From the IMG/VR virus record IMGVR_UViG_3300032289_002801, positions 1-21,784 of that record: DNA of 21,784 nucleotides; one strand, written 5' to 3'. A model generated the notes under the pieces. It was given only the letters and a program-made list of their open reading frames with translations, did not search any database and was not told the DNA's origin. Position 1 is the first letter of the stretch, and each line of letters begins with the position of its first letter. Source of the DNA: a virus. Positions 1-17,465 of the stretch are shown here, piece after piece. The position numbers were made by a program, and so were the translations under genes.

Positions 1-177
1 CAGCTGGGCGGCTACATGGTGCTCGAGGCCGCCCAGTGGAACCACTACGAGCTGGGACAGACGATCTGGAGCAAGCCCGGCGAGGCGCTCACCAGCACTT
101 TTTACAGCCGTGAGCAGTGCCTGGCGGCCTGGGCTGCGGCCTGGAGCCGTTACTGCCTGAGCCACCGCCCCTTCTGA
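1..177 (+). CDS. 3' end of an unidentified gene (partial)
   Basis: An open frame enters from the left edge and ends at TGA 175-177, giving the last 58 residues of a protein. The tail is rich in aromatic residues (Trp, Tyr) and contains the stretch WNHYELGQTIWSKPGEAL. I do not recognise the family. Its frame and strand match the downstream terminase cluster, so it may belong to the same element, but an 86-base non-coding gap with a possible promoter separates it from the terminase genes. It could equally be the last host gene before the element. The reading frame is supported by lack of stops and by codon use like that of the neighbours. Confidence 0.55.
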   Translation, partial: QLGGYMVLEAAQWNHYELGQTIWSKPGEALTSTFYSREQCLAAWAAAWSRYCLSHRPF

Positions 178-209
178 TCACCCAGACATCCAAGAGGCAG
201 GCCAGGACA

Positions 210-237
210 TTGGCTTGCAATGCAGAGCCGCTAGATT
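210..237 (+). promoter_or_regulatory. Candidate sigma-70 type promoter for the packaging operon
   Basis: TTGGCT (210-215) and TAGATT (232-237) are separated by 16 bases. Each matches the consensus hexamer at four of six positions. They lie in the only non-coding gap before the terminase genes, which makes this the most plausible site for an upstream promoter. The predicted start near 244 would give a very short leader. This is seen by eye only and is weak. Confidence 0.3.
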
Positions 238-281
238 GAGCAGGCTCGGAATTGTCCGGGTCAATGATCTCGTGCTCTCTG

Positions 282-656
282 ATGGCGGACCTCCTGCTCG
301 CTGCTGCTCCATCGGCATCCCTCGCAGATGCGGCTGATCTCGATGCCCTGCTGGATGCCGTTACCGCGATCAAGGCCCGGCAGAAGGAGCTGGAGCAGCA
401 ACTGGAGCCCCTGCTGGAGGCCCTTAACGCGGCGATGGCCGCCGGCCAGCTGGATCCAGCCTTCTCCCACAACGACTGGGCCTTTGCCCACAGCCCCGGG
501 CGGCTGAGCTACGACTTCCCGCCGGTGGTGCAACAGATCGAGCAGCAGCTCAAGGCCGCCAAGGACAGCGCGATCCAGCAGGGCAGCGCCACCGAAAAGC
601 GCGGCAAACCCTTCTGGACCATCCGTGCACCCAAAACGCCGGTACTGCCGTTCTGA
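282..656 (+). CDS. Small helical protein upstream of terminase, function unknown
   Basis: The protein has about 124 residues from ATG 282. An in-frame ATG at 264 and a TTG at 252 are alternative starts, and none has a clear Shine-Dalgarno site. Residues about 18-55 form a probable coiled coil (AIKARQKELEQQLEPLLEAL), followed by a Trp/Phe-containing segment and a second amphipathic helix (VVQQIEQQLKAAKD). The C-terminus (GKPFWTIRAPK) is basic. It ends 4 bases before the small terminase start and is probably co-transcribed with it. The position at the head of a packaging operon fits a phage DNA-binding or packaging accessory protein, but no known family is recognised. Confidence 0.65.
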   Translation: MADLLLAAAPSASLADAADLDALLDAVTAIKARQKELEQQLEPLLEALNAAMAAGQLDPAFSHNDWAFAHSPGRLSYDFPPVVQQIEQQLKAAKDSAIQQGSATEKRGKPFWTIRAPKTPVLPF

Positions 657-660
657 GCCC

Positions 661-1197
661 ATGGCGCAGCACGACCGCCAGCACAGCGCCGCTGATGCGG
701 TGGAGGAGCTGCGCTCTGCAGCCAGCGCAGAAGACGACAACGGCCAGCCGCTGTATGAGCCCACCGACCCCGCCCGGCCGATCGGGCATGCCAACCCCCC
801 GCGCCGCACGAGGGGACTGCTCATGCAGCCACCCCCTCGGCCCTCGCGTTTGGAGGTGGAGCGGCGTGTGGCAGAAGCGCAGCTTTGGATCGCCCAGCGC
901 ATTCCGCTGGCGCTGATCGCCGAAAAAGCTCGTGAAAGCTGGGGGGTCAAGAACACCCAGACGATCAATCGCTACCTCAACCTGGCCCGTGAGCGGATGG
1001 TGGAGGAGCTGATCTCCGACCGGCGCCGCCACCAGGCCGAGCAGATCTTTGCCCTCAACGACTGTGCCCGCCGCGCCATGGACGCTGAGCAGTTCTCCGC
1101 GGCGGTGGGTGCCTTCCGGGTGATCGCCGAGATCGGCGGACTGCTGCGGGCACCGATCAAACCACCCGAGCCCCATGGGGGCGGGTCCAGAAGTTGA
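661..1197 (+). CDS. Phage terminase small subunit-like protein
   Basis: This is a 178-residue protein from ATG 661. The N-terminal 55 residues are acidic and Pro-rich, probably disordered. Residues about 58-110 look like a helix-turn-helix DNA-binding domain with the terminase small-subunit pattern: IPLALIAEKA, then SWGVKNTQTINRYLNLARER. A helical oligomerisation region follows (RRRHQAEQIFALNDCARRAM ... AFRVIAEIGGLL), as in TerS proteins that read 'kxARexxxe... AlxxxxeiaxLlGL'. TerS recognises phage DNA and regulates the large subunit. The stop codon overlaps the ATG of the large terminase by one base (TGATG), implying translational coupling. Identification rests on fold pattern plus position directly before TerL. 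Confidence 0.8.
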   Translation: MAQHDRQHSAADAVEELRSAASAEDDNGQPLYEPTDPARPIGHANPPRRTRGLLMQPPPRPSRLEVERRVAEAQLWIAQRIPLALIAEKARESWGVKNTQTINRYLNLARERMVEELISDRRRHQAEQIFALNDCARRAMDAEQFSAAVGAFRVIAEIGGLLRAPIKPPEPHGGGSRS

Positions 1198-2834
1198 TGG
1201 CTGGCCTGCTTCTCGATCCGGCCAGCGACCGCTGGGCCGACTGGGGCCTACTGGATGTTCCCGATCCTGACCGCCGGCAGAACGGCCCCCAGGCCCAGCA
1301 GGCCTTCCGTGATTTCATCGTGGCCGCTTATCCCGGCTACGCCTTCCACACCTGGGCCGAGCGCCTGATCTCCCTGCTGCAGCGGGTGGCTGATGGCGAG
1401 CTCAATCGCCTGATCGTCTGCTGTCCGCCGCGCTTGGGGAAATCGCTCCTGGTTTCCAAGCTGTTTCCCGCCTACTGGGTGAGCCGGTACCCCACGCGCT
1501 TCTGCGCCATCGCCTCGTATTCGGCCGAGCTGGCCTATGCCCATAGCCGTGAGGCACGTCACTACTACCGCGCTGTCGGCCACCCCCTCTCAAAGGACTC
1601 CACTGCCGTGGGCAACTGGCTCACCCCTGATCGCGGCGGCTGCATCGCCGCCGGCGTGCGCGGGCCCTTCACCGGCAAGGGCTACGCGCTGGGGATCATC
1701 GATGACCCCTACAAGGGTCCAGAAGACGCCAACTCCGCCGGCCAACGCCAGAAGCTGATCGAGTGGTTCCAATCCGTCTGGCTCACCCGCGCTGAACCGG
1801 CCCCACAGGGGCCTTCGCGATGGGGTTTTGCAGGCGCGGCCCAAGTGGTGGTGCTGACTCGCTGGCACCAGGACGACCTGATCGGCTGGCTGCTGGAGCA
1901 GGAGAGCGGCGAGGCCCCGCAGCACTGGCAGGTGCTGAATCTGCCGGCCATTGCCGAACCGCCCCAGCACCACATCAAGTTCCCGACCACCTGCGACATC
2001 GAGCCGGACTGGCGCCAGCCCGGTGAGCCGCTCTGCCCGGAACGGTTCCCGCTGGTGGAGCTGGAGCAGATCCGCATCCGCGCCGGCAGTTACTGGTGGA
2101 ACGCGCTGTATCAGCAGCGGCCCTCACCGGCAGAGGGTCTGCTGTTTCAACGCGCCTGGATCCGCACCACAGCGGGCACCCCTGCCCCAGCCGGCCGGGC
2201 GGCGCAAAGGGCCTTTACTGCGGTGGTGCTCAGTTGCGATCTGAGCTTCAAGGGGGGAGCGGAGAACGACTACTGCGGCTTCTGCCTCCTCGGCCTGCTG
2301 CCGGATCAGGAGGCCCGCCACCCGGCGGCCCAGGCCAAGGCACGGGGTGAGCAGCTCCACCCCAGTGCCGCCCGGATGCGCTCAACGGCCGAACCGCAGG
2401 AAGGTGTTGTCCACCGAATTGAGGTGATCTGGAGCCAGCACCACCGCCTCGACCTGCCGGGGGTGGTCAAATTCCTCGGCCAGACCCTGGCGTCACTGGG
2501 CCAGGGTCTGAGTCCTGATGCGGTACTGATCGAGGACGCCGCCAATGGCCCGGCCGTCTGCCAGCTGCTGCAGCGGCAGATCCCTGGCCTGATTGCTGTG
2601 CGGCCCAATGGCAGCAAGGTGAGCCGGGCTCATTCCGTGGCTCCGTTGATGGAAGCCAGCCAGCTGGCTTTTCGCAGCGGCAACGACGCCCTGATCAGCG
2701 AGTTGTTGGGGTTTCCCAACGGGGCCCATGACGACCTGGTGGATGCGTTCTGCCAGGGCGTGATCTGGCTGCAGACCCAGCACTGGCGCAGCCAGGGCAA
2801 GGCCACGCCCCGGCCGCTGCTGTTTTCCCGCTGA
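1197..2834 (+). CDS. terL: Phage terminase large subunit (ATPase and nuclease)
   Basis: This 545-residue protein is the packaging motor that cuts concatemeric DNA and pumps it into the procapsid through the portal. ATPase domain: Walker A CCPPRLGKSL (75-84), Walker B ALGIIDD (164-170), and the coupling motif VVVLTRWHQDDL (217-228), which is diagnostic of phage terminases. C-terminal RNase H-like nuclease: D348 in LSCDLSF, E446/D447 in LIEDAANGP, and D512, D513 and D516 in HDDLVDAF. All expected acidic positions are present and the length is normal, so the enzyme looks intact. ATG 1197 is chosen over the TTG at 1194 because it gives a one-base TGATG overlap with the small subunit. The intact active sites argue against old, decayed prophage DNA. 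Confidence 0.95.
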   Translation: MAGLLLDPASDRWADWGLLDVPDPDRRQNGPQAQQAFRDFIVAAYPGYAFHTWAERLISLLQRVADGELNRLIVCCPPRLGKSLLVSKLFPAYWVSRYPTRFCAIASYSAELAYAHSREARHYYRAVGHPLSKDSTAVGNWLTPDRGGCIAAGVRGPFTGKGYALGIIDDPYKGPEDANSAGQRQKLIEWFQSVWLTRAEPAPQGPSRWGFAGAAQVVVLTRWHQDDLIGWLLEQESGEAPQHWQVLNLPAIAEPPQHHIKFPTTCDIEPDWRQPGEPLCPERFPLVELEQIRIRAGSYWWNALYQQRPSPAEGLLFQRAWIRTTAGTPAPAGRAAQRAFTAVVLSCDLSFKGGAENDYCGFCLLGLLPDQEARHPAAQAKARGEQLHPSAARMRSTAEPQEGVVHRIEVIWSQHHRLDLPGVVKFLGQTLASLGQGLSPDAVLIEDAANGPAVCQLLQRQIPGLIAVRPNGSKVSRAHSVAPLMEASQLAFRSGNDALISELLGFPNGAHDDLVDAFCQGVIWLQTQHWRSQGKATPRPLLFSR

Positions 2835-2854
2835 GGGGCATCCCCCCGTTTCTC

Positions 2855-3379
2855 ATGAGCACCACACCACACGCCCACCGCCCGAGGCCCCAGCAGGCCA
2901 CCGCTCGCGTGACGACATCCGGCCGTGCACGCGGGCCATTGCGCTCACCCCATGCCGCTGCTGATGCCTTGGTGGTGGAGCACCTGCCCTTTGCGGCAAA
3001 GGTGGCGGCCAATTACGCCCGCCGCACCGGTCATCCCAAGGAAGACCTTGAGCAGCTGGCGGCAATCGGGCTGATCAAAGCCTCACGCCGCTACGACATC
3101 CACCGACCCGGACGAAGTCCCAACCACTTCATCGCCTACGCCAGGCCGTTCGTGAATGGCGAGATCACCCATTACCTGCGTGACAAGGGGTTCTTGATTT
3201 CGGTACCCGGCCGCTGGCGGGAGCTGCATGCTCGGGGGCAGAAGTTGCTCCGGGAAGGAGTCGCAGCCCACGAAATCCCGCAACGGCTGGGGCTCTCGGC
3301 TGATCGCTGGGCTGAGATCTGCCGGGCATGCGCCGTGCGAGTTGTAGCGATGGCCACCCATCACCAAGATGGTACGTAG
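2855..3379 (+). CDS. Short sigma-70 family sigma factor lacking region 4
   Basis: This is a 174-residue protein. After a basic, disordered N-terminus (1-36), region 2 is recognisable: LVVEHLPFAAKVAANYA (2.1), DLEQLAAIGLIKASRRYD (core-binding helix, 64-81), then FIAYARPFVNGEITHYLRD (92-110, the -10 recognition helix). KGFLISVPGRWREL and a region 3-like helix pair (EIPQRLGLSADRWAEICRA) follow. The layout resembles SigB/SigF-type group 3 factors (GEI..y.RD.g..vrvPrR..El). The chain stops at ATHHQDGT, where region 4, the -35 reader, should begin, and no region 4 follows in any frame. It sits 20 bases after terL. By analogy with phage late sigma factors it may redirect host RNA polymerase to element promoters of extended -10 type, perhaps with a partner protein. 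Confidence 0.85.
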   Translation: MSTTPHAHRPRPQQATARVTTSGRARGPLRSPHAAADALVVEHLPFAAKVAANYARRTGHPKEDLEQLAAIGLIKASRRYDIHRPGRSPNHFIAYARPFVNGEITHYLRDKGFLISVPGRWRELHARGQKLLREGVAAHEIPQRLGLSADRWAEICRACAVRVVAMATHHQDGT

Positions 3380-3409
3380 GCACATCTGGCCAAACACTTC
3401 CACTCTTCA

Positions 3410-3841
3410 ATGCAGAGCGTCAACCCTGCTGATGTCGATCCTCAGCCTCTAAACAATCCTTATGCGCCACCCAATGATCCGGTATTTGACACGCTATTTG
3501 GGCTGGCAATTCAAGGCGACTTACGAGTCTATTTTGCAGCCGTCCCTTTGTCCCTGATCAAGCCCCATTCTCTCCATTTTCGCTTCCTTGAAACCCCCAA
3601 TGCCAGCGCCATCGTTGCAGCACTGATTGACGCTGCACGGCAAGGACAGTTCGCTCGACTTTGGGTCTACGAAAAGGACGATCATTTTGTTATGTCAGAC
3701 GACTATCCGCAATACGAAGCATGCCTCCAAGGGCAACCCGACTATGTCCCATGCTGGATTCTTGGCCGACCACGCAATCCGGCAGCGATTGATGTTCAAG
3801 GCCCTGTCAATGCCAGGGAAGCTGCAGGGCTAGACGGTTAA
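3410..3841 (+). CDS. Hypothetical protein of lower GC content between sigma factor and portal
   Basis: The protein has 143 residues from ATG 3410. The N-terminal 25 residues are Asn/Pro-rich. A compact alpha/beta region follows: VYFAAVPLSLIKP, a helix IVAALIDAARQGQF, strand ARLWVYEKDDHFVMSDDY, and YVPCWILGRP. The order strand-'SLIKPH'-helix-'SDDYPqY'-'vPCwiLG' distantly recalls ParB-like or sulfiredoxin-like folds, but the usual catalytic motif is not evident, so I assign no function. Two 60-base rows counted by hand are about 47-52% G+C, against about two-thirds in neighbouring genes, suggesting a separate origin. It is 30 bases downstream of the sigma gene and 38 bases upstream of the portal, in the same direction. 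Confidence 0.7.
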   Translation: MQSVNPADVDPQPLNNPYAPPNDPVFDTLFGLAIQGDLRVYFAAVPLSLIKPHSLHFRFLETPNASAIVAALIDAARQGQFARLWVYEKDDHFVMSDDYPQYEACLQGQPDYVPCWILGRPRNPAAIDVQGPVNAREAAGLDG

Positions 3842-3879
3842 TCAACTCGTCGGCAACAGCCAGTAGCTGATGGGCGGCT

Positions 3880-5295
3880 GTGCCAGCAAAGATTCCACAG
3901 GGCGGCTGCGCTCCGGCAGGCGGTGTGGAATCCACGCTGCGCCGCCATCAACTCGGCCTGGATCTTCTCCCCCGCCTGGATCTGATCCAGCACTGCTGGG
4001 ACCTCCTCGCAGGACGAAAGGAGCATTACCTCCCCCGCGGTGAACGCGAACCAGAAACCGCCTACCGCCGTCGGTTGGAGGCGGCTCTGCCCTCGGGCTT
4101 CTTCCGCGACGCACTGCGCACCTTTGCCGGGATGCTGGCCTCCAGCCACTGGCGTGGGCTTCCAGCCACTTTGCAAGCAGTGATCAGCGATGTGGATGGA
4201 CGCGGCACCGACTTGGGTGTGTTCCTCGAGCGTGCCGACGTGCTGGTGCTCCGCGATGGTGCAGCACTGATTGGCGTGCTGCCACCGCAGCACCTCTGGC
4301 CCAGCGAGGGCGATCGCCAGCAGGCCCTGCGCCGTGGCGATCGCCTCTCCCTGCCGCGTCTTGCTCTGCTGGAGCGCCGCGATGTCCTGAACTGGAACTT
4401 GCCCGGACCCCAGTCCCTACCTGACGCGGTCAGCTTTCGGCTGCCTAACCCCAAGGCCCAGGACGAGCCCCTGGACCCGGATCGACCACAGCATCCGTGG
4501 CTCTACGGCTCCGTTGCCCTCGATGGCGAGGGCATGAGCATTGAAACCATCGAGCTCGCGGCAGACCCGCAGGCACCAACCGGCTGGCGCCAACAACGCA
4601 GTGGGCTGCAGCACTACCGGGGCATTAGCCAGCTGCCCCTGATCTGGTACGCCAGTGATGGCGCCGCTTTTGGGGAAGGCGACCTGCCGCATCTGGGCCT
4701 GGCGCATCAGTACCTCAACCACTTCCGGTGCCAGAGCGACTACCAGGAGCTGCTGTACCGAACCGCCCTGCCCGTGGGAGTGCGGACAGGGGTCGTGGGC
4801 CCGATGGGCAGTGGCACCAGCGAGCCGGTGGTGCTCGGCCCCAACACCGTGATTGATCTGCCCGATGGGGCCAACTTCCAGTTCGTGGAGATCCAAGCCC
4901 GCTCCCTGGCCGAGCACCGCGCCTGGCTGGAATCCCTCGACCAGGGCATGCGCCGTGATGCCCTGATCCCATCCGGCGCCCAGGGAGCACCACGCACCGC
5001 CACAGAGATCTCGCTGGCGGCCTCGCAGGCCTATGCGCTGTTGCAGAGCCAGGCGATCCAGAAGGCCTCGATGTTCTCCTCTCTGCTGCAGCACTGGTGC
5101 GCGATCAGCGGAGAACCAGTTCCCGCGCAGGAGGGCCCGGCGCTGCTGGTGGAGATCAGCCCGCTGGCACCGGCGCCTAAGCCGCAACCCACCGTTGCCG
5201 AAATGCTGCAGCTGCATGAGCGCGGCATCGTGAGCGAGCAGGCCCTGCGGCAATGGCTGGGGGATCTGGCCGGTGTGGCACCGGCTTCTGCATGA
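3880..5295 (+). CDS. Phage portal protein, DUF4055-like
   Basis: The protein has about 471 residues. The portal forms the dodecameric ring at the capsid vertex through which TerL packages DNA. The N-terminal pattern is that of DUF4055 portal proteins: LIQHCWDLLAGRKEHYLPR, EREPETAYRRRLEAAL, FFRDALRTFAGMLASSHW, then a 'GTDLGVFLERADVLVLRDGA' segment. The middle contains HYRGISQLPLIWY and GEGDLPHLGLAHQYLNHFRCQSDY, typical of this family, and the C-terminal half has the long 'AATEISLAAS..ALLQS' clip/wing helices. GTG 3880 is the first start after an in-frame TGA at 3868; a GTG at 3925 is the alternative. A nearby ATG at 3870 is out of frame. It overlaps the next gene by ATGA. Confidence 0.88.
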   Translation: MPAKIPQGGCAPAGGVESTLRRHQLGLDLLPRLDLIQHCWDLLAGRKEHYLPRGEREPETAYRRRLEAALPSGFFRDALRTFAGMLASSHWRGLPATLQAVISDVDGRGTDLGVFLERADVLVLRDGAALIGVLPPQHLWPSEGDRQQALRRGDRLSLPRLALLERRDVLNWNLPGPQSLPDAVSFRLPNPKAQDEPLDPDRPQHPWLYGSVALDGEGMSIETIELAADPQAPTGWRQQRSGLQHYRGISQLPLIWYASDGAAFGEGDLPHLGLAHQYLNHFRCQSDYQELLYRTALPVGVRTGVVGPMGSGTSEPVVLGPNTVIDLPDGANFQFVEIQARSLAEHRAWLESLDQGMRRDALIPSGAQGAPRTATEISLAASQAYALLQSQAIQKASMFSSLLQHWCAISGEPVPAQEGPALLVEISPLAPAPKPQPTVAEMLQLHERGIVSEQALRQWLGDLAGVAPASA

Positions 5296-5819
5296 CCATC
5301 AGCAGCAACGCGCCCACCGCTCCAGGTGGTGCGATGTGGCAACCGCAAGACCAGGAGGCCATCCGCCAGTGTCTGGCGCTGCCCGCCACCGTTCCCTGTC
5401 TGGATGCCATCGGGCGGGCGATGGCGGATCTACTGCGCCAACACCCGGCCGGGGTGCTGAGCGCCCGTGCCCTGCTGGATGCGGTGGCCCTGATCGATCA
5501 GCAGCTGCTGGCTAGTGGCTGCGAGCAGGAGCAGGCGATCCAGAAACGCAGCCACTCGGGGCCGATCGCCGGCTCGGTCGCGGCGGCTGGTGATGCACCC
5601 CTGCAAAAAGCAGATGTGATCGCCTACGACACGGCGCTGCTGCGCGAGGAGAGCGAGACCACCTACGCCAACCCCAGCTCGCCCGCGATGGGACTGCTGC
5701 GCCGGCGGCGCCGCTACGCCGACCAGCTGCTGTTGCTGCTGCCTGGGCTCAGCAGCTGGGTGCAGTTCACCGCCCAGGCCGCAGGGCAGCTGGGAACAAC
5801 GCCGATGCTGCGGGGTTGA
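5292..5819 (+). CDS. Hypothetical head-cluster protein after the portal
   Basis: The protein has 175 residues and starts at ATG 5292, which overlaps the portal stop (ATGA), so translation is coupled. It is mainly helical: AIRQCLALPATVPCLDAIGR, ALLDAVALIDQQLLA, then a segment with ETTYANPSSPAMGLLRRRRRYADQLLLLLPGLSSWV containing a five-Arg run followed by a Leu-rich stretch. That stretch is short for a membrane segment and more likely a buried helix. No family is recognised. Position between portal and scaffold is where minor head or head-completion proteins commonly lie, which is the only basis for suggesting a virion role. Confidence 0.7.
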   Translation: MTISSNAPTAPGGAMWQPQDQEAIRQCLALPATVPCLDAIGRAMADLLRQHPAGVLSARALLDAVALIDQQLLASGCEQEQAIQKRSHSGPIAGSVAAAGDAPLQKADVIAYDTALLREESETTYANPSSPAMGLLRRRRRYADQLLLLLPGLSSWVQFTAQAAGQLGTTPMLRG

Positions 5820-5822
5820 GCG

Positions 5823-6416
5823 ATGACCACAAGCCCCAGACGTTTCACCAGCGGCGAACATCCACGGGCGGCCGGGCCCTGGCCCGCGACTCCATTGCAG
5901 CCATTTGCCAATGCACGCCTGCTGCTGGCGGAGAACGCCATCCCCGGTGACACCACCTCTGCTGTGGTGGCTGCGCATGTGCTCGAGTGCTTTCTGGTGC
6001 GCGCCAATTACATCTCCGCCAAGGAGAACGGCCCTGGCGTTGACACCGGCGACTTCACCTACAGCGGCATGATCTGCCGGGCTACCCGCCTGCCGCCCCA
6101 CCCTGGCGCCATCTGGCTGAGCAGCAACTTGAGCTGGCAGCAGAACGGACGCCGCGTTGCCAGCGGTGGCAGCGTCGCACCGGGAGGTGCGCTCAGCAGC
6201 ACCGTGGTGGCTCCCTGCGAGGGACTGATCTGGCTGGGGGATCTCAGCCTGCTCAACGCTGCGGGCGCTGCTGATGTGGATCCCTACGCCCAGCACACCG
6301 CCTTTGTGGTTCTGGAGTTCGGCGCCGATTACGGCTCTGGCGGCATCGGCTCCCTCGTGCAGCCGCTGATCGGCGAGCGGGTGTTCGGAACGCTCAAGCC
6401 GAATCGAGTCGTCTGA
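5823..6416 (+). CDS. Hypothetical beta-rich structural protein
   Basis: The protein has 197 residues and starts 3 bases after the preceding stop. It is predicted by eye to be beta-rich with many small and Gly/Ser/Thr residues: GAIWLSSNLSWQQNGRRVA, GGSVAPGGALSSTVVAPCEG, LIWLGDLSLLNAAG, HTAFVVLEFGADYG. The C-terminus is QPLIGERVFGTLKPNRVV. Neither a signal peptide nor a transmembrane segment is evident. The family is not recognised. Composition and place in the cluster fit a capsid decoration or virion protein, but this is inference. A long nested hairpin (6424-6479) separates it from the scaffold-like gene. Confidence 0.7.
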   Translation: MTTSPRRFTSGEHPRAAGPWPATPLQPFANARLLLAENAIPGDTTSAVVAAHVLECFLVRANYISAKENGPGVDTGDFTYSGMICRATRLPPHPGAIWLSSNLSWQQNGRRVASGGSVAPGGALSSTVVAPCEGLIWLGDLSLLNAAGAADVDPYAQHTAFVVLEFGADYGSGGIGSLVQPLIGERVFGTLKPNRVV

Positions 6417-6423
6417 TTCCTGC

Positions 6424-6479
6424 CTCGGCAACAGGGGATGGCAGCGCCGCGATGGGCTGCCATCCCACTGACAGCCGAG
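6424..6479 (+). promoter_or_regulatory. Nested stem-loop between structural genes
   Basis: Inner perfect 11-bp stem GGGATGGCAGC (6435-6445) / GCTGCCATCCC (6456-6466) with a 10-base loop; outer 6-bp stem CTCGGC (6424-6429) / GCCGAG (6474-6479). There is no T-tract after it. The outer arm ends only 7 bases before the ATG of the scaffold-like gene, so it could limit read-through, set mRNA stability, or mask that ribosome site to tune scaffold expression. Confidence 0.55.
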
Positions 6480-6486
6480 ACGGGTC

Positions 6487-7362
6487 ATGGCCACTGCTTC
6501 CGCAACCCCCAGCACCAGCACCGCCCGCAGCGGGGGTGATGGCAACGACTTGCTGGACCTCCGCGACCCGGAGGCCAGCGAGCAGGACAGCACTCAGGCC
6601 GAGCACAGCACTGGCTCGGATGCTGCAACCACTGCCAATGAATCCACCCAGGGATCCGGCGGCGATGGCCCCAGTGGGGCTGGCCTCAGCGAAGCGCTCA
6701 AGGCCGAGCGCCGCCGCAGCAACAACCTCGAAAAAGAACTGCGGGGGCTGCGGCAGCAGCTGACCCGTTTCTCGGAGATCAACCCCGAGGAGTACGCCCG
6801 TCTGCAGGAGGCCGAACGCCAAAAGCAGCACCTCGAGCAGCAGCTGGAGCTGCGTGAGCGCCAGATGGAGGAGGCCGCCTCCAAACGGGTGGCAGCTGTC
6901 TCGGCAGAGCGCGACGCCGCCCATGAGCGGGTGCAGGAGCTACGCAAGGAGCGACTGCTGGAGCGCGCCTTTTCAGAAGCGGAAGGGCGCACCGGCGGCG
7001 ATGGGCGCGGCACCTTCTTCCAGGTGTTCCGCTCGATGCTCTGGGACTGCTTCCGGCTTGGCAGCAGCAAGGACGGCAGCGATGCTCTCGAACCGTTGGA
7101 CGCTCAGGGCCAGCCACTGCTGGGTGATGACGGCCGGCCAATGACCACGGCCGACTACCTCGATCAGCTGCGCATCCACCCTGTCTATGGCTTTCTGTTC
7201 CAGCAGCGCGGCGCCATGGGCACGGGAGCTTTGCCCGCGGGCAGTGCAGCCGGCAGCCTCGGCGCCAGCGGTTTTGGGGAGGTGATCAATCCACAGGCGA
7301 TGAGCGCCAGCGAGCTCTACCGGGCCGGCTTTGCCCTCAATGGCCGCAGCCCGCGCAGCTGA
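6487..7362 (+). CDS. Putative capsid scaffolding protein
   Basis: This 291-residue protein has the layout of a phage scaffold. Residues 1-65 are acidic, Ser/Thr/Gly-rich and disordered. Residues about 68-160 form a long charged coiled coil (EALKAERRRSNNLEKELRGL, QEAERQKQHLEQQLELRERQ, AERDAAHERVQELRKER). A C-terminal region follows with PMTTADYLDQLRIHPVYGFLF and a Gly/Ala-rich tail with SASELYRAGFALNG. Scaffolds drive procapsid assembly and then leave. The expected position, between portal and major capsid gene, agrees, although accessory genes have been inserted between it and the capsid gene. No protease motif is seen, so how the scaffold would be removed is unknown. Confidence 0.75.
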   Translation: MATASATPSTSTARSGGDGNDLLDLRDPEASEQDSTQAEHSTGSDAATTANESTQGSGGDGPSGAGLSEALKAERRRSNNLEKELRGLRQQLTRFSEINPEEYARLQEAERQKQHLEQQLELRERQMEEAASKRVAAVSAERDAAHERVQELRKERLLERAFSEAEGRTGGDGRGTFFQVFRSMLWDCFRLGSSKDGSDALEPLDAQGQPLLGDDGRPMTTADYLDQLRIHPVYGFLFQQRGAMGTGALPAGSAAGSLGASGFGEVINPQAMSASELYRAGFALNGRSPRS

Positions 7363-7367
7363 GCGTC

Positions 7368-7652
7368 ATGACGCGCTGGCACTACTACCTGGCCTTCTGG
7401 AGCCGCCGCTCCACTGCCACCGTGGTGCCGGCGCTGAATCGCAGCCAGGCCAGGGATCGTGCTCAGGCCAGGCAGAAAGCCGGCTACGGCAGCTTGGTGG
7501 CGATCCAGCAGGCCAATGCGGCCGACCGCCGCCTGATCCGACAGGGCGTTTGGGTGCGGCGGCGCCGCAATGGCAGCAGCCCCCAGTTCGGCGCAGCTCC
7601 CGCTCGTGCGGCAGCGCGCAGGCAACGGAGCCGCTACCGGCCCTGGCTTTGA
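7368..7652 (+). CDS. Small, very basic hypothetical protein
   Basis: The protein has 94 residues from ATG 7368, 5 bases after the scaffold stop. It starts MTRWHYYLAFWSRRS and is rich in Arg/Gln (LNRSQARDRAQARQKAGYGS, VRRRRNGSS, AARRQRSRYRPWL). Strong positive charge suggests binding to nucleic acid or to an acidic partner such as the scaffold. No family is recognised. It is the last + strand gene before the accessory insertion and is followed by a hairpin at 7695-7713. It could in principle be a non-coding frame, since Arg-rich ORFs are common at high GC, but spacing and start codon favour a gene. Confidence 0.5.
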   Translation: MTRWHYYLAFWSRRSTATVVPALNRSQARDRAQARQKAGYGSLVAIQQANAADRRLIRQGVWVRRRRNGSSPQFGAAPARAAARRQRSRYRPWL

Positions 7653-7694
7653 AATCAGCCACTGGCCTGGAGGTGAGCTAGCCAAGGGCAGAAA

Positions 7695-7713
7695 GGCCCG
7701 GCAACGCCGGGCC
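7695..7713. terminator. Hairpin between convergent genes, probable bidirectional terminator
   Basis: A perfect 8-bp stem GGCCCGGC (7695-7702) / GCCGGGCC (7706-7713) with an AAC loop lies between the stop at 7652 (+) and the stop at 7728 (-). No T-tract is present, as is common for cyanobacterial 3' ends. The same stem core recurs at 13698-13733. Confidence 0.5.
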
Positions 7714-7727
7714 ACAAGGCCGCCGCC

Positions 7728-7943
7728 TCAGAGCACCGAGACGGTGCCGAGGCGCTTGGCGGCCAGCTTGCGGGCCAGCTGATGGGCCAGCTCAGCTGGC
7801 AGGAAACGCGGCTTCTTCACGGGCTTGCCGCGGCGGCCATAGAAGACCGTGACGCGCTCGGCAGCAGCGACCTTGAGCCCAGCCGGATAGCTGTGCAGCA
7901 CCAGCTGACGGATCGGACAGGCCAGAAGAGCAGAGGAGGCCAT
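7728..7943 (-). CDS. Small basic hypothetical protein
   Basis: The protein has 71 residues from ATG 7943 and reads leftward. It begins MASSALLACPIRQLVLHSYP, has a short strand-rich core VTVFYGRRGKPVKKPRFLP, and ends with a basic helix ELAHQLARKLAAKRLG. It is strongly cationic. An N-terminal extension to 7997 is open but has a composition unlike the rest. It is divergent from the HD hydrolase gene, with a 14-bp inverted repeat in the shared upstream region, an arrangement typical of a small regulator and its operator. No known DNA-binding family is recognised, so that role is speculation. Confidence 0.55.
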   Translation of the reverse strand: MASSALLACPIRQLVLHSYPAGLKVAAAERVTVFYGRRGKPVKKPRFLPAELAHQLARKLAAKRLGTVSVL

Positions 7944-7986
7944 GGGACGGAGGCGAGGAACACCTGCCCCATCGCCCCGGACGACA

Positions 7987-8037
7987 CGCCCTGGCAAGGG
8001 TCGGCGTAGCCGACTCGCGTCAGCCCTTGCCAGGGCG
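7987..8037. promoter_or_regulatory. 14-bp perfect inverted repeat in a divergent intergenic region
   Basis: CGCCCTGGCAAGGG (7987-8000) pairs perfectly with CCCTTGCCAGGGCG (8024-8037). The 23-base loop holds a smaller dyad TCGGC-GTA-GCCGA (8001-8013). A further 7-bp hairpin GCAGGGC-ACA-GCCCTGC follows at 8044-8060. The site lies in the 218-base gap between divergent starts at 7943 and 8162, so a terminator is unlikely. An operator for a dimeric regulator, or a structured leader RNA of the HD hydrolase gene, is more plausible. Confidence 0.5.
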
Positions 8038-8161
8038 GGGCGAGCAGGGCACAGCCCTGCGCTCCGGGGCAGTGCTGGTGATTCCTCGCCGACCCCATGG
8101 CCGGATGGCTGCCGGAGCCTGGTTGAGACAGCAGCCGCAACACCGGCTGTAGAACGTGGCG

Positions 8162-8836
8162 ATGACGGCTCCTGAGAACGCCCACAGCCAGCGCTACACC
8201 GATGCCCTGGGCTGGGCGGCTGAGCTGCACCGCGGTCAGCGGCGCAAGGGCAAGCCGGTTCCTTACATCGCCCACCTCATTGCCGTGAGTGCTCTGGTGT
8301 GGGAGGACGGCGGCAGCGAAAACCAGGCAATCGCGGGTCTGCTGCACGACGCCATCGAGGATGCGGGCCAGAGCCAGGCCTCGATTGCCGCACGCTTTGG
8401 CGCGGAGGTGGCCGCGATCGTGGTGGACTGCACCGACACCGCTGGCCCCGTGGAGCCCGGCGCCGAGAAGGAACCTTGGCTGCTGCGCAAGACCCGCTAC
8501 ATCGCCTCACTGGAGGACAAGCCGCAGACCTCTCTGCTGGTGACGGCAGCCGACAAGGCCCACAACGCCCGTGATCTGGTGCTCGATGCGCGCAGCAACC
8601 CCAATGACTGGGAGCGTTTCACGGCTGGGCTGGAAGGCAGTGCCTGGTACCTGCTGCGCGTGCAGCAGGCCCTGAGCCATCGCTTGCCGGAGAGTCGCTC
8701 CACCGCCCTGCTGGCAGAAGCGTTGCAGGAGCTGCTGAGCAGCGAGCCCTACCGGCGTCTGGTGCCCCATGGCATCGCGCCGGCGGTGTGGGCTGCCAGT
8801 TACCTGGAGCGGCCAGAGGCCCATCCCCAGCACTGA
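8162..8836 (+). CDS. RelA/SpoT-like HD-domain hydrolase (small alarmone hydrolase / MESH1 type)
   Basis: This 224-residue protein consists almost entirely of one HD domain of the RelA/SpoT hydrolase class. It shows the signature motifs in order: ELHRGQRRKGKPVPYIAHLI (21-40, with the metal-binding His), AIAGLLHDAIEDAG (HD 62-63 and ED 66-67), FGAEVAAIVVDCTD, and TAADKAHNARDL (Asp 131, Asn 135). No synthetase, TGS or ACT domain is present, so it should be hydrolase-only. Family members remove pyrophosphate from (p)ppGpp, or the 2'-phosphate from NADPH (MESH1). It is embedded in the phage head cluster, where it could lower host alarmone levels during particle production. ATG 8162 is preferred to GTG 8156. 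The upstream region is rich in dyads. Confidence 0.85.
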   Translation: MTAPENAHSQRYTDALGWAAELHRGQRRKGKPVPYIAHLIAVSALVWEDGGSENQAIAGLLHDAIEDAGQSQASIAARFGAEVAAIVVDCTDTAGPVEPGAEKEPWLLRKTRYIASLEDKPQTSLLVTAADKAHNARDLVLDARSNPNDWERFTAGLEGSAWYLLRVQQALSHRLPESRSTALLAEALQELLSSEPYRRLVPHGIAPAVWAASYLERPEAHPQH

Positions 8837-8865
8837 TTCACATCCCTCTGCATCAGCGCGGGAGG

Positions 8866-8883
8866 GAGCCGGTGGGACGGCTC
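8866..8883. terminator. Hairpin at convergent gene ends
   Basis: GAGCCG (8866-8871) / CGGCTC (8878-8883) with a 6-base loop lies between the HD hydrolase stop (8836) and the holin-like stop (8882-8884), partly overlapping the latter. A second, overlapping 6-bp dyad is TCCCTC (8843-8848) / GAGGGA (8862-8867). It is a modest candidate bidirectional terminator with no T-tract. Confidence 0.35.
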
Positions 8884-9139
8884 AGTCATCGGGATTGCGC
8901 CGCCGTGCACTCGCGATGCTGCCGCCACCAAGCAAGGCCAGGCTGGTGCCAACCGCCGTCTCAAAGGTCTGCTGCAGGTTCTCGGCGTAGCTGCTGCACA
9001 CCGGGCCAAGCCGCCGCTGCAGACCAAGCCAAAAGCAACCGCCAAGGCCAGCGGCATAGAGCGCGAACTGGGCGATGAACACCCCAGCCACCGCCCGCAA
9101 TAGGAAGCGCTCGCGATCAAACCCTTCACCACCGGCCAT
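8882..9139 (-). CDS. Holin-like two-TM membrane protein
   Basis: The protein has 85 residues from ATG 9139. It has a short charged N-terminus (EGFDRERFLLR), a hydrophobic segment at about 15-40 (AVAGVFIAQFALYAAGLGG), a polar loop (QRRLGPVCSSYAENLQQTFE), a second hydrophobic Gly/Ala/Leu segment at about 60-77 (TAVGTSLALLGGGSIASA), and a charged tail RRRNPDD. This topology and size fit a class II holin, which forms inner-membrane lesions that release or activate endolysin. The gene directly follows the C39-like peptidase gene on the same strand with a 19-base gap, as in a lysis cassette. No sequence family is recognised; the call rests on topology and neighbour. Confidence 0.6.
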   Translation of the reverse strand: MAGGEGFDRERFLLRAVAGVFIAQFALYAAGLGGCFWLGLQRRLGPVCSSYAENLQQTFETAVGTSLALLGGGSIASARRRNPDD

Positions 9140-9158
9140 GGTTCTGCTCCTCGGCGAC

Positions 9159-9905
9159 TCAGGGATGGCAGGTGAGCAGCCAGCCGGTGCCGGGGCCATC
9201 GGCCTGCCAGCGCGGCAGCCAGTTCTTCCAGCTGTAGTGCTGCCCTGCTCCATTGGTGTTGGCGGTGTAGCCGCCATGGACCAGGTCGGCCTCACCATTG
9301 GGGTCGTTGTGGATGGCAGCGGCCTCGGTGAAACCGATCACCACGCTCCAGTGACCGCCGCCGCTGGGGGCTGAGGCGGGGCCGTGGTGCAGCCAGCCCA
9401 CTGCCACTGGCCGCCCCAGATGGATCTGTTCCTCCAGCGTTGCGCGCTGGCCGTTGGTGGCGAAGTTGGCGGTCAGCCCCAGGGAGCGCAACGCCGCCAG
9501 CTGCGCTTCTGCCGAGGTGGTGTCGCCGTAGCGGGCACGGATGACGTTGTAGTCGTCGTCGCCTGAGACCTTGCCCCAGTAGCGGGCGAGCATGGCGCAG
9601 CTGCTGGAGAAGCATTCGCGGTAGCCCGTGCCTGAGGCGTTGTCGTTCTGGTTCTCCCAGGCCACCGGCAGCGGATTGGCATGGGCCGGGGCCGGCGGCG
9701 CCGAGGAGAAGGTCTGCCGCCAGGAGGCGGCTTCCGTCAGCAGTGCAGGGTCTGCAGCGATGACGGCCTGACGCAGCTGCTCGATGCCGTCCAGCTGCTG
9801 GGGCTGAGCCTTCCAGTTGTCCCAGAACTGACGCCAGCGCTCAGCGCTGAACGGGGCCTGGGCAGCAGGCGTGACGGCAGCCGGAGCGGGAGAGCTTGGA
9901 GACAT
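9159..9905 (-). CDS. C39-like (papain-fold) cysteine peptidase, putative endolysin
   Basis: This is a 248-residue protein from ATG 9905. Residues 1-80 are a Pro/Ala-rich and helical N-terminal part. The catalytic part starts with NQNDNASGTGYRECFSSSCA, which supplies the oxyanion Gln and the nucleophile Cys (C98, less likely C103). GRPVAVGWLHHG, GGGHWSVVIGF (catalytic H185) and IHNDPNGEADLV (Asp/Asn partner, 200-201) follow in the standard C39_2 order. Such domains act as murein or protein peptidases and occur in phage lysis and virion proteins. Lacking a signal peptide, it would need the adjacent holin-like protein to reach the wall. It is transcribed opposite to the head genes and diverges from the capsid gene, which suggests separate timing. 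Confidence 0.78.
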   Translation of the reverse strand: MSPSSPAPAAVTPAAQAPFSAERWRQFWDNWKAQPQQLDGIEQLRQAVIAADPALLTEAASWRQTFSSAPPAPAHANPLPVAWENQNDNASGTGYRECFSSSCAMLARYWGKVSGDDDYNVIRARYGDTTSAEAQLAALRSLGLTANFATNGQRATLEEQIHLGRPVAVGWLHHGPASAPSGGGHWSVVIGFTEAAAIHNDPNGEADLVHGGYTANTNGAGQHYSWKNWLPRWQADGPGTGWLLTCHP

Positions 9906-9984
9906 GGCAGCAGGGCAGTCCTCTGCTGTTGCCGCAGGGCTTCATCGCCAGCAGCAGCTGCTCGGCAATAGCCCCTGACATCAC

Positions 9985-9999
9985 TGGGGCCTGGCCCCA
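9985..9999. promoter_or_regulatory. Palindrome just upstream of the capsid gene
   Basis: TGGGGCC-T-GGCCCCA is a perfect 7+1+7 palindrome ending 8 bases before the major capsid ATG, in the 102-base gap between the divergent endolysin and capsid genes. It could be an operator for a dimeric regulator or a translational control element near the ribosome site. GC-rich palindromes arise by chance in such DNA, so confidence is low. Confidence 0.3.
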
Positions 10000-10007
10000 C
10001 CTGTGCC

Positions 10008-10937
10008 ATGGGCCTCACCCTGATCGAGGCAGCCAAATACGAGCACCGGCTTGAGCACCTCGCTGTGCTCAAGACCTTCTCGGAGGGCGAACTGCTCGCC
10101 CGGCTGCCGTTCATGAACATCGCCGGCAGCGGCCTCTTCTATTCCGCCGAGCAGGAACTGCCCTCGGTGGGCTTCCGCGCCGTCAACGAGGGCTACACCC
10201 AGAGCTACGGCGTGGTGGACCAGCGCGCAGAAGCGGTGCACCTCTTTGGCGGTGACGTGGATGTGGACCGCTCGATCGTGGACCTGATGGGCCCTGAAGC
10301 CCGCGCCAGCCAGATCGAGATGAAGGTGCGCTCGATGCGGTTGACGCTGGAGGCGACCGTGATCAACGGCGACACCGCCAGTAATCCCCGCGCCTTTGAC
10401 GGCTTGAGCAAGCGGCTGCCGCCCGGCAACCCGATGGCGATCAACAACGCAGCCGGCGCTATCCCCGGTGCACCGCTGAACTTCGATCGGCTCGATGAGC
10501 TGATCGATTCGGTGAATGCCTACGGCGGCAGCAAGGTGCTGGTGATGAGCAAGGCGATGCGCCGCCAGCTCAATGCCCTCGCCCGCGCCTCCATCGGCGG
10601 CGGCGTCTACCAGACCAGCACCAACTCCTACGGGATGACGGTGCACCGCTACCAGGACTGCGACATCCTCACCGTCGACCGCGATGCCCAGGGCGTCGAG
10701 GTGATGGGCTACGACGAAGCGGGCGGCACCAGCTCGATCTACTGCTGCACCTTTGGCGATCAGGGCGTTACCGGCCTGCAGGGCCCGTTCCAGGGCCGCT
10801 ACGGCATCTCGGTGCGGGACCTGGGCGAGGTGCCCGATGCCCCGGTGTTCCGCACCCGGGTGGATTGGTACGTGGGCTTTGCCGTGCTGCAGCCCCGCGC
10901 CGCCGGCCGTCTGTTCAACATCACCCCCGCTGCCTGA
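10008..10937 (+). CDS. Major capsid protein, HK97-fold type
   Basis: This 309-residue protein is the likely shell protein. It begins with a helical arm (LIEAAKYEHRLEHLAVLKTF), then GELLARLPFMNIAGSGLFY and an extended-loop-like segment with VDQRAEAVHLFGGDVDVDR. An alpha-helical spine follows (EARASQIEMKVRSMRLTLEATVI), then NGDTASNPRAFDGL, a pattern shared by many HK97-fold capsid proteins ('fingGd.a..p..FdGl'). The A-domain includes LDELIDSVNAYGGSKVLVMSKAMRRQLNAL, and the C-terminal part includes GYDEAGGTSSIYCCTFG. No separate protease or delta domain is visible. Being a shell protein with an intact frame, it supports a functional particle. It is followed after one codon by the decoration-like gene. 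Confidence 0.85.
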   Translation: MGLTLIEAAKYEHRLEHLAVLKTFSEGELLARLPFMNIAGSGLFYSAEQELPSVGFRAVNEGYTQSYGVVDQRAEAVHLFGGDVDVDRSIVDLMGPEARASQIEMKVRSMRLTLEATVINGDTASNPRAFDGLSKRLPPGNPMAINNAAGAIPGAPLNFDRLDELIDSVNAYGGSKVLVMSKAMRRQLNALARASIGGGVYQTSTNSYGMTVHRYQDCDILTVDRDAQGVEVMGYDEAGGTSSIYCCTFGDQGVTGLQGPFQGRYGISVRDLGEVPDAPVFRTRVDWYVGFAVLQPRAAGRLFNITPAA

Positions 10938-10940
10938 ACC

Positions 10941-11378
10941 ATGGCCACGCGCAACGGCAACCCCTTGATCGATGCGGAGACCACCCTGGTGGGCTGGACG
11001 AACCGCAGCGCCATCCGCAACAGCGAGCACACCTTCCTCTCCGGTGAGGAGGTGCTGCTCAACACCAAGCTCGATGCGGCCTCCCGCTTCTCGCTGGTGG
11101 CCTCCCATCCCGGCGCGCCCGCCGCAGTGGAGGTGGAGCTGCTGCTGGCACCGGTGCTGCGCGATGGCACCACCGGCAGCTGGATTAGTGCTGTCCGCGT
11201 TGCCCTACCGGCAGAAGGCGGCCGGGTGGAGGCATTTCTTTCCGGCCATGACATCCAGATCACACCGGCGGATCTGCCCAACCTCGATCTGCCGGCGGTG
11301 TGTTTCGCCAAGGCGCTCGTGACCCCGACCACACCGGCGGGCATGCACGTGGGCCTGACGGCCACCATCGCGGCCTGA
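10941..11378 (+). CDS. Small beta-rich virion protein, possible capsid decoration
   Basis: The protein has 145 residues and begins 3 bases after the capsid stop. It is rich in beta-forming residues: RFSLVASHPGAPAAVEVELL, SAVRVALPAEGGRVEAFLSG, FAKALVTPTTPAGMHVGLTA. It has no membrane segment and no known family. A small beta protein immediately after the major capsid gene is a common place for decoration or head-stabilising proteins, so that is the best guess. Its frame is the same as that of the capsid gene, with only one codon between the TGA and the ATG. Confidence 0.65.
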   Translation: MATRNGNPLIDAETTLVGWTNRSAIRNSEHTFLSGEEVLLNTKLDAASRFSLVASHPGAPAAVEVELLLAPVLRDGTTGSWISAVRVALPAEGGRVEAFLSGHDIQITPADLPNLDLPAVCFAKALVTPTTPAGMHVGLTATIAA

Positions 11379-11382
11379 GCCC

Positions 11383-11805
11383 ATGGCCCGCAAACGCTCC
11401 ACCAGCCCCGCAGAGGAACCGGCAGCCGAGCTGCTGCCGGCGCAGCCCACCGCGATCGAGGTGCCAACCGCCACGGCGACCCGTCACGACCTGGTGGATC
11501 CCACCGTTCCGGCCGGCCTGGTGAGGATCAGTGACGGCAGCCAGGAGCGCTTCATCTGGCCGGTGCACCTGAGCGGCTGGCAGCAGCAGGGTTGGACCCT
11601 GATCGCCGCCGCCACCGGCGTTCAGATCACGCCGCAGCCAACAGCGCCTCCAGCAGTGATCGAGGTGCCGCTGGCAGAAGAGACGCCAGAGCCGAGCTCA
11701 TCCGAACCCATGCCAGCCAGCACTGCGGCTGGGGGAGCTGCTAGTTGGGAGCTGGAGAGCAGTGCCACAGGCGAGGCGCTGCTGCTCGACGACCCGCTGC
11801 TGTGA
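11383..11805 (+). CDS. Hypothetical virion protein with a WQQQGW module
   Basis: This protein has 140 residues from ATG 11383. The N-terminal 40 residues are Ala/Pro/Glu-rich. A compact central module (about 42-80) contains LVRISDGSQERFIWPVHLSG then WQQQGWTLIAAATG. The C-terminal part is again low-complexity (Pro/Ser/Glu). The central module resembles one near the start of the next ORF (SVWVPPVEVTRWEQQGYRRA). The TGA stop (11803-11805) is followed at once, in the same frame, by the next open frame, so the two could be one gene split by a stop, a programmed read-through pair, or a duplication. The function is unknown. Confidence 0.6.
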   Translation: MARKRSTSPAEEPAAELLPAQPTAIEVPTATATRHDLVDPTVPAGLVRISDGSQERFIWPVHLSGWQQQGWTLIAAATGVQITPQPTAPPAVIEVPLAEETPEPSSSEPMPASTAAGGAASWELESSATGEALLLDDPLL

Positions 11806-11808
11806 TTG

Positions 11809-12597: not shown

Positions 12598-13064
12598 TGC
12601 CCTGGACACGCAGCACCAACCTCAAGGGCCCGTCGATGCTGCGGGTGGCGCGGCTACCGGCGGCGCTGAGCACTACCTCCAACACCAGCTGGCTCAGCCT
12701 GTTCAGCACACCGCTGGCGGCGCAACAGGTGCTCTCCTTCTCGGCGGAGCTCTACTTCTCCAGCGGCGCCAACAACACCGGCCTGGTGACCACCCTCTCC
12801 GGCCCCGCCACACCGCAGGCGGTGATCCACAACTTGGTAACCGGTGAATCGCTCACCAGCTTTCGCAACCTCACCGCCAGCAGCTACGACACGCCCCTGA
12901 TCGGCACCACCTCCGCCGGAAGTTCGGTGCTCAGGGCCCAGGTGAGCGGCACGGTGGAGAACGGCGCCAATGCCGGCACCCTCAGCCTGCGTTTCCGCTC
13001 AGAAGTGGCCGGCACAGCGGTGACGGTGCTGCGCGGCTCCTGGTGGCAGGTGCTGCAGCACTGA
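12597..13064 (+). CDS. Hypothetical beta-rich virion protein
   Basis: The protein has 155 residues, with its ATG overlapping the previous stop by one base (TGATG). It is Ser/Thr/Ala-rich and beta-rich: VLSFSAELYFSSGANNTGLV, SLTSFRNLTASSYDTPLIG, GSSVLRAQVSGTVENGANAG, TAVTVLRGSWWQVLQH. The composition resembles phage fibre or neck-appendage beta proteins. The family is not recognised. Its location between a PKD-like protein and the collagen-like fibre suggests that all three form one adsorption structure. Confidence 0.65.
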   Translation: MPWTRSTNLKGPSMLRVARLPAALSTTSNTSWLSLFSTPLAAQQVLSFSAELYFSSGANNTGLVTTLSGPATPQAVIHNLVTGESLTSFRNLTASSYDTPLIGTTSAGSSVLRAQVSGTVENGANAGTLSLRFRSEVAGTAVTVLRGSWWQVLQH

Positions 13065-13136
13065 GCCGGGCTCAGACGCGCGCAACAACGGCAATAGGGG
13101 GTGTGCTCTCGCCGGCCACAGGGCCGTTGCTCTTCC

Positions 13137-13697
13137 ATGGCCTGGATTCCCTCCGGTTCGCTCAAGGGCCCGCAAGGGGATCCCGGCCCGCAGGGACCTC
13201 AGGGGGTACAGGGCCAACCCGGTGCCGATGGCGCCCAGGGCGCTCAAGGCCCACAGGGACCAGCGGGGATGCAGGGCGTTGCTGGGCCAGAAGGACCGCA
13301 GGGCCAGCAGGGCATCCAGGGTGCTCCGGGCCTGGGCATCACCTTCAAGGGGCATGTGGCCACCGTGGCGGACCTGCCCGCCGATGCAGTCCAGGGCGAT
13401 GCCTACATCGTGCAGGCGGATGACTCCTTCCGCGTCTGGGACGCCACCAGCAGCGCCTGGGTGGATGGGGGTTCGATCCAGGGACCCCAAGGCATCGCCG
13501 GCCCGCAGGGACCGCAAGGCCTGCAGGGAGAGCCCGGCCCCCAGGGGCAGCAGGGGGTGGAGGGTCCTGCCGGGCCCCAGGGCAACCGCGGCACCGGCTG
13601 GTTCACCGGCAGTGGAGCACCCACAACCGTGCCCGGATCTGTGCCGGGTGATCTGTATCTGGATCAAACCAGCGGTGATGTGTACGTGCTGAGCTGA
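13137..13697 (+). CDS. Collagen-like fibre protein
   Basis: This 186-residue protein contains two blocks of Gly-X-Y triplets. The first, of about 18 (GPQGDPGPQGPQGVQG..., residues about 11-65), and the second, of about 13 (GPQGIAGPQGPQGLQGEPGP...), are separated by a globular module FKGHVATVADLPADAVQGDA / YIVQADDSFRVWD. It ends with GSVPGDLYLDQTSGDVYVLS. This repeat-module-repeat design is known from phage tail fibres and bacterial exosporium-like proteins, forming trimeric rods. The C-terminus matches the style of the end of the protein at 11809. ATG 13137 is chosen because the peptide then starts directly before the repeats. It is the last gene of the + strand structural run. Confidence 0.85.
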   Translation: MAWIPSGSLKGPQGDPGPQGPQGVQGQPGADGAQGAQGPQGPAGMQGVAGPEGPQGQQGIQGAPGLGITFKGHVATVADLPADAVQGDAYIVQADDSFRVWDATSSAWVDGGSIQGPQGIAGPQGPQGLQGEPGPQGQQGVEGPAGPQGNRGTGWFTGSGAPTTVPGSVPGDLYLDQTSGDVYVLS

Positions 13698-13733
13698 GGC
13701 CCGGCGGGCGTGATCAGCACGCAGCGCCGGGCC
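13698..13733. terminator. Strong two-part hairpin at the end of the structural operon
   Basis: GGCCCGGCG (13698-13706) pairs with CGCCGGGCC (13725-13733), and inside it GCGTG (13708-13712) pairs with CACGC (13718-13722) around ATCAG. It begins immediately after the fibre stop (13695-13697) and lies 9 bases from the convergent minus-strand stop at 13743. It very probably terminates both transcripts, although no T-tract is seen. It shares the GGCCCGGC core with the hairpin at 7695. Confidence 0.65.
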
Positions 13734-13742
13734 GTGATGCGC

Positions 13743-16512: not shown

Positions 16513-16557
16513 GCAGGTGGCAGACAGGCATGGCTAAAAATTCGTGACTCAGGCTCA

Positions 16558-17460: not shown

Positions 17461-17465
17461 CGAGG

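Follow-up and report, generated by a model that had tools for sequence, protein, structure and literature searches.

Cellular sigma factors of the SigF, SigB and SigG types use two-part promoters, and in two-subunit sigma factors (SigO-RsoA of Bacillus, gp33/gp34 of SPO1) region 4 lies outside the polypeptide that carries region 2. The late sigma factor gp55 of T4 is based on sigma2 and has no region 4; it binds the gp45 clamp through a C-terminal motif and also binds the large terminase (TerL), and T4 late promoters have no -35 element (PMC7892883, PMC2988020, PMC9026906). Among cyanophages, P-SS2, S-CBS2 and the S-CRES phages carry a sigma gene directly after terL, labelled as an ordinary sigma factor; in 2009 the P-SS2 copy (ORF003) was annotated as a 'type III (group 3) RNAP sigma factor'. 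Our search of the literature, mostly of non-subscription papers, found no paper on a missing region 4 or on clamp motifs in cyanosiphoviruses.

The DNA analysed here (the window) is a complete virus record of 21,784 bases, with the genome ends lying outside it. At 2855..3379 on the plus strand it carries a sigma factor gene, an ORF of 174 residues with regions 2 and 3 only. It belongs to the same family as the sigma factors of P-SS2, S-CBS2 and S-CRES1-3, which likewise stand after terL and have no Pfam region 4. The S-CRES sigma ends in QGSLF, whereas the window copy has no clamp motif, and the marine phages do not have the portal gene beside the sigma gene. We propose that the gene represents a conserved family of cyanophage late sigma factors that would read only a -10 element, with the host clamp as the likely activator in those lineages that bear clamp motifs, and we put the probability of this reading at about 0.68.

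The likeness to T4 gp55 lies in the absence of region 4 throughout the cyanophage sigma family, in a motif without a -35 before late genes (the putative promoters), and, in the marine relatives, in a clamp motif on a C-terminal linker, for which binding is predicted. There are also differences. The cyanophage protein is a SigB/F/G-type factor with a region 3 bundle; the motif is GGCAANAG or GGNANACTA and not the T4 late element; and the host beta clamp would serve as the clamp. The clamp motifs lie at the N-terminus in two clades, and the window has none. gp55 is absent among the best 60 matches listed for the profiles of the window-type and marine copies (sets A2 and A3 below) against PDB sequences.

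The sigma factor and its relatives

The original prediction described the product of this gene as a sigma factor in which regions 2 and 3 are clear and region 4 is missing, and the profile searches bear this out. Pfam Sigma70_r2 (3.8e-7), the NCBIfam SigF model (residues 37-162, 8e-21, with the SigB/F/G models matching too) and the PHROG sigma factor family (5e-20) all match the protein. Region 2 occupies residues 39-112 (2969..3190, + strand) by Pfam Sigma70_r2, and the helices of the AlphaFold2 model here cover residues 32-111; from knowledge of the family, we take this region to be responsible for core binding and -10 recognition. Region 3 occupies residues 119-160 (3209..3334, + strand), modelled as three helices (119-133, 138-144 and 149-160) with a disordered tail following; the SigF profile extends to residue 162. 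The model, calculated for a single chain, has a mean pLDDT of 83. Its top PDB matches in Foldseek and VIA-align are all sigma factors, cyanobacterial SigA and S. aureus SigB among them. The structure prediction proposed as a check returns sigma2 and a three-helix sigma3.

Comparison of sigma2-sigma3 with cellular SigF-like proteins in hhalign gives 99.9%. In the trimmed window sequence this alignment reaches residue 143, and the chain stops near the start of region 3.2 of SigF-type proteins. The Pfam Sigma70_r3 model gives no score on the family, despite the three-helix region 3 bundle. As regards membership of group 3 (SigB/F/G), regions 2 and 3 are present in the window sigma and region 4 is absent. 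An ECF sigma factor is ruled out on the same features, region 3 being present and region 4 absent. Assignment to a non-sigma HTH family, which had been raised as a way in which the prediction could fail, is ruled out by the Pfam, NCBIfam, PHROG and fold matches.

Relatives were gathered from IMG/VR, GTDB genomes and annotated phages. Set A2 comprises 54 non-redundant copies of the window type from picocyanobacterial prophages and phages, which the tree divides into clade A, to which the window belongs, and clades B and C; set A3 comprises 43 marine siphovirus copies, including P-SS2, S-CBS2 and S-CRES; and set A4 comprises 23 cellular SigF-like proteins, used as controls. Pfam region 2 is found in 54/54 of A2. 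Pfam region 4 is found in none of the 54 window-type copies and none of the 43 marine copies, but in all 23 cellular controls. The best profile matches of the window sigma, the SigF/SigB/SigG proteins of cyanobacteria and Bacillus, thus differ from it in carrying region 4. The equivalents of the -10-recognition regions are strongly conserved in the family.

It had been anticipated that the homologues might all carry region 4, in which case the window gene would be a normal sigma gene that was cut short and is decaying. The chain does stop where region 3.2 would start. However, the homologues all stop at the same place, and in the window clade the sigma core has a median dN/dS of 0.107 (55 pairs), the value for the N-terminal tail being 0.45; the window sigma is under purifying selection, as judged from these sequence comparisons. 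Nor is there a remnant of region 4 downstream of the gene or, as the prediction had stated, in any frame: a region-4 profile run against six-frame segments of the window gave nothing convincing (best E 0.41, at 240-653), and the same profile detected the cellular controls but matched none of the ORFs in the phage and prophage loci of the relatives. Truncation can for practical purposes be set aside, and it is close to certain that this is a conserved sigma family without region 4.

The window copy stops after region 3, and the copies of P-SS2, S-CBS2 and S-CRES1-3 have a C-terminal extension of roughly 50-90 residues. Pfam and hhalign do not recognise region 4 in the C-terminal part of the marine proteins. 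HMMER, however, extends its profile alignment with sigmaF and FliA into some of this part, and the marine C-terminal domain may be a decayed region 4, as far as sequence alignment can indicate.

Neighbouring genes and cargo

The sigma ORF starts with an ATG 20 nt past the stop codon of the large terminase gene (terL, 1194..2834, +), and terL adjoins the sigma gene, directly upstream, in nearly all of the related phage and prophage loci. Before terL, the gene at 625..1197 (+) is probably the small terminase gene, as suggested by its position and an HTH-like N-terminal part; it occupies the place of the annotated terS in P-SS2, S-CBS2 and S-CRES, with a weak family match. The sigma gene had been placed between terminase and portal genes. 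This is correct for the terminase side, but on the other side a variable cargo gene with no family match (3410..3841, +) lies in the gap and precedes the portal gene (3880..5295, +; phrog_145, 1.4e-31). Further downstream are the genes for head scaffolding (6487..7362, +; phrog_206, 7e-16), the major capsid protein (10008..10937, +; phrog_212, 3e-70) and a collagen-like tail fibre (13101..13697, +). Terminase, portal, scaffold, capsid and collagen-like fibre are the recognised element genes; no recognisable tape-measure or other tail genes were found at 10941-13697 of the window or in loci L181 and L182. This element may represent a phage with a short tail, or else a satellite that forms capsids.

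The sigma gene had been called unusual among cyanobacterial elements. This does not hold, because the TerL-sigma pair is widespread, both in Cyanobium and Synechococcus genomes and in marine cyanosiphoviruses, and because the P-SS2 copy had been annotated in 2009. Some genomes hold several such elements, with four close matches in Synechococcus HJ21-Hayes and seven loci in Cyanobium Cruz-8D1; these two genomes underlie loci L033 and L037-L055.

Among the relatives, the gap between sigma and portal ranges from 0.1 to 7.1 kb and constitutes a cargo slot (3380-3851 in the window; also L017, L058, L066 and L118). A set of 62 ORFs from the slot includes matches to the anti-phage defence models HEC-01, HEC-06, AriA, Old, GajA and AbiLi, and to Pfam Shedu SduA, GmrSD and AbiGi. 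The 3' end of the sigma gene, which lies beside the slot (3245-3379 in the window, the second half of sigma3), is far more variable than the rest, and two loci hold an orphan second copy of this 3' end only (L042:10431-11180 and L048:8342-8518). The end of the sigma gene may be where recombination takes place during cargo exchange.

Between the scaffold and capsid genes, an HD_4-domain gene (8156-8836) and a C39-like peptidase gene (9159-9905), on the minus strand, form a second cargo slot, which lies before the motif site at 9964 described below. After the fibre gene come an ArdC-like antirestriction gene (14604-15668, -) and an HNH gene (15874-16512), followed further on by a TerB-domain gene (17856-18545, -) and a DUF499 antiphage-associated gene (18895-21768, -). 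The stretch 14604-21768 may hold a second set of defence cargo, or may be host DNA flanking the element.

Promoter-like motifs before particle genes

A search upstream of the cluster genes for a shared extended -10 motif had been suggested, and it yielded a motif that is extended -10-like and has no -35: GG[CT]AANAG in the window's group, and GGNANACTA in the marine relatives. In the window, this late promoter-like motif takes the form GGCAACAG before the portal gene (3852..3859) and the scaffold gene (6427..6434), and GGCAATAG before the major capsid gene (9964..9971) and the collagen-like fibre gene (13090..13097). All four sites are on the plus strand, in sense orientation and intergenic; the one at 13090, just 11 nt before the mechanical start of the fibre gene, is the weakest of the four. 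The window holds five occurrences on both strands, against a mean of 2.03 in shuffled sequences, of which 3/100 reach five. This count alone is not extreme, and the case therefore rests on position and conservation.

In the non-redundant regions of the window's group, GG[CT]AANAG is found before the portal gene in sense orientation in 41/42 and antisense in 1/42; before the scaffold gene the figures are 6/6 and 0/6, and before the capsid gene 9/9 and 1/9, these counts (like those for clamp motifs below) being taken over related sequences and so not representing independent events. The exact sequence GGCAATAG occurs 56 times in sense and four times in antisense orientation in 34 loci, where about six are expected per strand. 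A Cyanobium genome of 2.4 Mb has four copies of YGGCAATAGC, and two of these lie within the element. In the motif logo, the positions of the search pattern are invariant by construction, whereas the pyrimidine at -1 and the C/G at +8 are not. The portion GGCAANA presumably resembles the sigmaF -10. There is no conserved -35 in the window's group, columns -45 to -3 containing at most 0.34 bits. A scan of positions 1-14300 of the window for Sigma70-type promoters found none; with 0.9 expected in shuffled sequences, this is uninformative.

The marine relatives have a related motif in a different place. In S-CRES1, TGGYANACTA stands about 30 nt before several late genes, and a weight matrix from ten sites finds 10 sense and 1 antisense across the genome, the matrix being built from the same sites. 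Across 37 non-redundant 1-kb regions before TerL in the marine relatives, GGNANACTA is found in sense orientation in 29 and antisense in none, mostly 28-34 nt before the ORF in the terS position. We assume that it resembles the sigmaG -10 (CATACTA); a literature search for this -10 returned no text with the motif. No conserved block is seen at -35 in an alignment of 36 marine sites. A T-rich stretch immediately before the motif is, in many sequences, the tail of an intrinsic terminator. No T4-like TATAAATA late promoters were found in the upstream regions scanned in S-CRES1. The lack of a conserved -35 in both groups is what a sigma factor without region 4 predicts.

On the basis of these patterns of sequence, the sigma factor probably reads GG[CT]AANAG or GGNANACTA. 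The presence of the motif before the portal, scaffold and capsid genes fits the role in particle production that had been proposed for the sigma factor.

Alternatively, the motif might belong to the cargo slots, as a boundary, a leader or a recombination element, while the sigma factor reads something else. In the window's group the motif does stand where variable cargo meets conserved core genes, and its hexamer is not a classical -10. However, at the sigma side of the sigma-portal slot the motif is present in only 1/54 of the regions downstream of sigma, an argument against paired recombination sites; the motif is oriented towards the gene, and in the marine phages the related motif is at a fixed distance before terS. 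We regard a boundary element as unlikely. It is still less probable that the sigma factor mainly occupies core polymerase, displacing host sigma factors and shutting off host transcription, with no promoters of its own. Such a role would suit a protein with the core-binding region 2 and no reader of a -35, but it leaves aside the strong conservation of the -10-recognition equivalents and the strand-specific motif that accompanies the gene in most loci.

The original prediction left a choice between a factor that reads only the -10 or extended -10 element and one that needs a separate -35-binding partner. The motif without a -35 favours the first. As to the second, and unlike the SigO-RsoA type of system, neither the window nor the related loci yielded an ORF for a separate region-4 subunit. 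A search for region 4 could miss such a partner, since T4 gp33 sits on the flap in the place of region 4 and is unrelated to it, and several genes of the element have no family match. A phage or host protein might in this way supply the beta-flap and upstream-DNA contacts of region 4, like gp33 or SigO-RsoA. A partner that reads DNA is at odds with the absence of any conserved -35-like block, an objection that spares a flap binder reading no sequence. A split sigma of this kind seems to us improbable, to much the same degree as the boundary element, and we retain the reading of a late sigma factor that acts at a -10 element only.

Clamp-binding motifs and the proposed mechanism

Bacterial clamp-binding motifs follow the consensus QL(S/D)LF or QxxLF, with the N-terminal QLSLPL of Hda as a further form (PMC12309361, PMC3836487). 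In the marine sigma proteins, QxxLF is found near the end of the C-terminal tail in 37/45, mostly as QGSLF or QPSLF, where shuffled sequences give an expectation of 0.6. In S-CRES1, a C-terminal clamp motif is found in no other of the 67 CDS scanned. In S-CBS2 (L019 4561-4770) the motif is hidden because a one-base frame difference cuts the annotated sigma gene short; the other frame runs on to GDGRLQGSLF and a stop codon.

In clades B and C, sister clades of the window's own, the sigma gene begins a few nucleotides after the terL stop codon, with an N-terminal tail that carries hexapeptides of the form QLxLxL/F, usually two. These are present in 30 of 60 tails, with 0.4 expected from shuffles. 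The distal hexapeptides are QLDLPL, QLALPL, QLCLPL and QLPLPF, and the proximal ones QLVIAF, QLVFAF, QLVLAF and QLSLSL. The positions of the clamp motifs stay fixed inside tails that are otherwise variable. No clamp motif is found in the sigma of P-SS2 and some B subclades, nor in that of the window and the whole of clade A, which has MSTTPHAHRPRPQQATARV... instead. Elsewhere in the window the only clamp-like motifs are QLGLDL near the N-terminus of the portal protein and QLLLLL in ORF 5253, both treated as chance, in the case of QLGLDL because it is absent from the relative examined.

We infer promoter recognition, clamp binding and coupling to replication from sequence, and propose the following mechanism. 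The sigma factor would bind host core RNA polymerase through region 2, and would read only a -10-type element before the particle genes, GG[CT]AANAG / GGCAANAG in the window's group and GGNANACTA in the marine group; with no region 4, no -35 would be needed. The clamp motifs in the sigma of relatives make the DNA-loaded host sliding clamp the likely activator in the lineages that bear them. There, the sigma would be tethered to the DNA-loaded host beta clamp, which would stand in for region 4, and late transcription would be coupled to replication, as gp45 does for T4 gp55. It is this T4-like set of parts on a SigF-type scaffold that leads us to propose a clamp-tethered, -10-only late sigma. 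In the marine phages, the position of the motif before terS, and so upstream of terL and sigma, may create a positive feedback loop.

A clamp tether is thus a good prospect in the relatives that have the motif, as their sequences suggest, and a poor one for the window copy itself. As clade A has no clamp motif, for the window copy we go no further than a -10-only late sigma, which may act alone or with the help of a partner protein.

The clamp motifs of the relatives might serve DNA packaging, through coupling of TerL, sigma and clamp, and not the activation of transcription. The sigma gene adjoins terL, and in T4 the TerL protein (gp17) binds gp55 and the clamp machinery. This leaves the promoter-like motif unexplained, although packaging could act beside a role in transcription, and we consider packaging in place of transcription to be quite improbable. 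If the preferred reading of the motif as a promoter is correct, transcription start sites should lie 5-10 nt downstream of GGCAATAG or GGCATACTA.

There is about an even chance that these cyanobacterial siphoviruses and prophages make up a second lineage, separate from T4, in which late transcription is coupled to replication. A SigF-type sigma would there have lost region 4 and gained clamp motifs, C-terminal in the marine phages and N-terminal, usually in pairs, in freshwater prophages, so that the host clamp takes over from the -35 contact and activates promoters consisting of a -10 only; the clade of the window, which has no clamp motif, would then be derived or have branched off earlier. 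If so, sigma factors would have exchanged region 4 for a clamp of the replication machinery on more than one occasion. Replication, late transcription and, given that sigma lies beside terL, possibly packaging would be linked in cyanophages of Synechococcus and Prochlorococcus relatives. A concrete late promoter motif would also make late transcription units predictable in the contigs that carry it.
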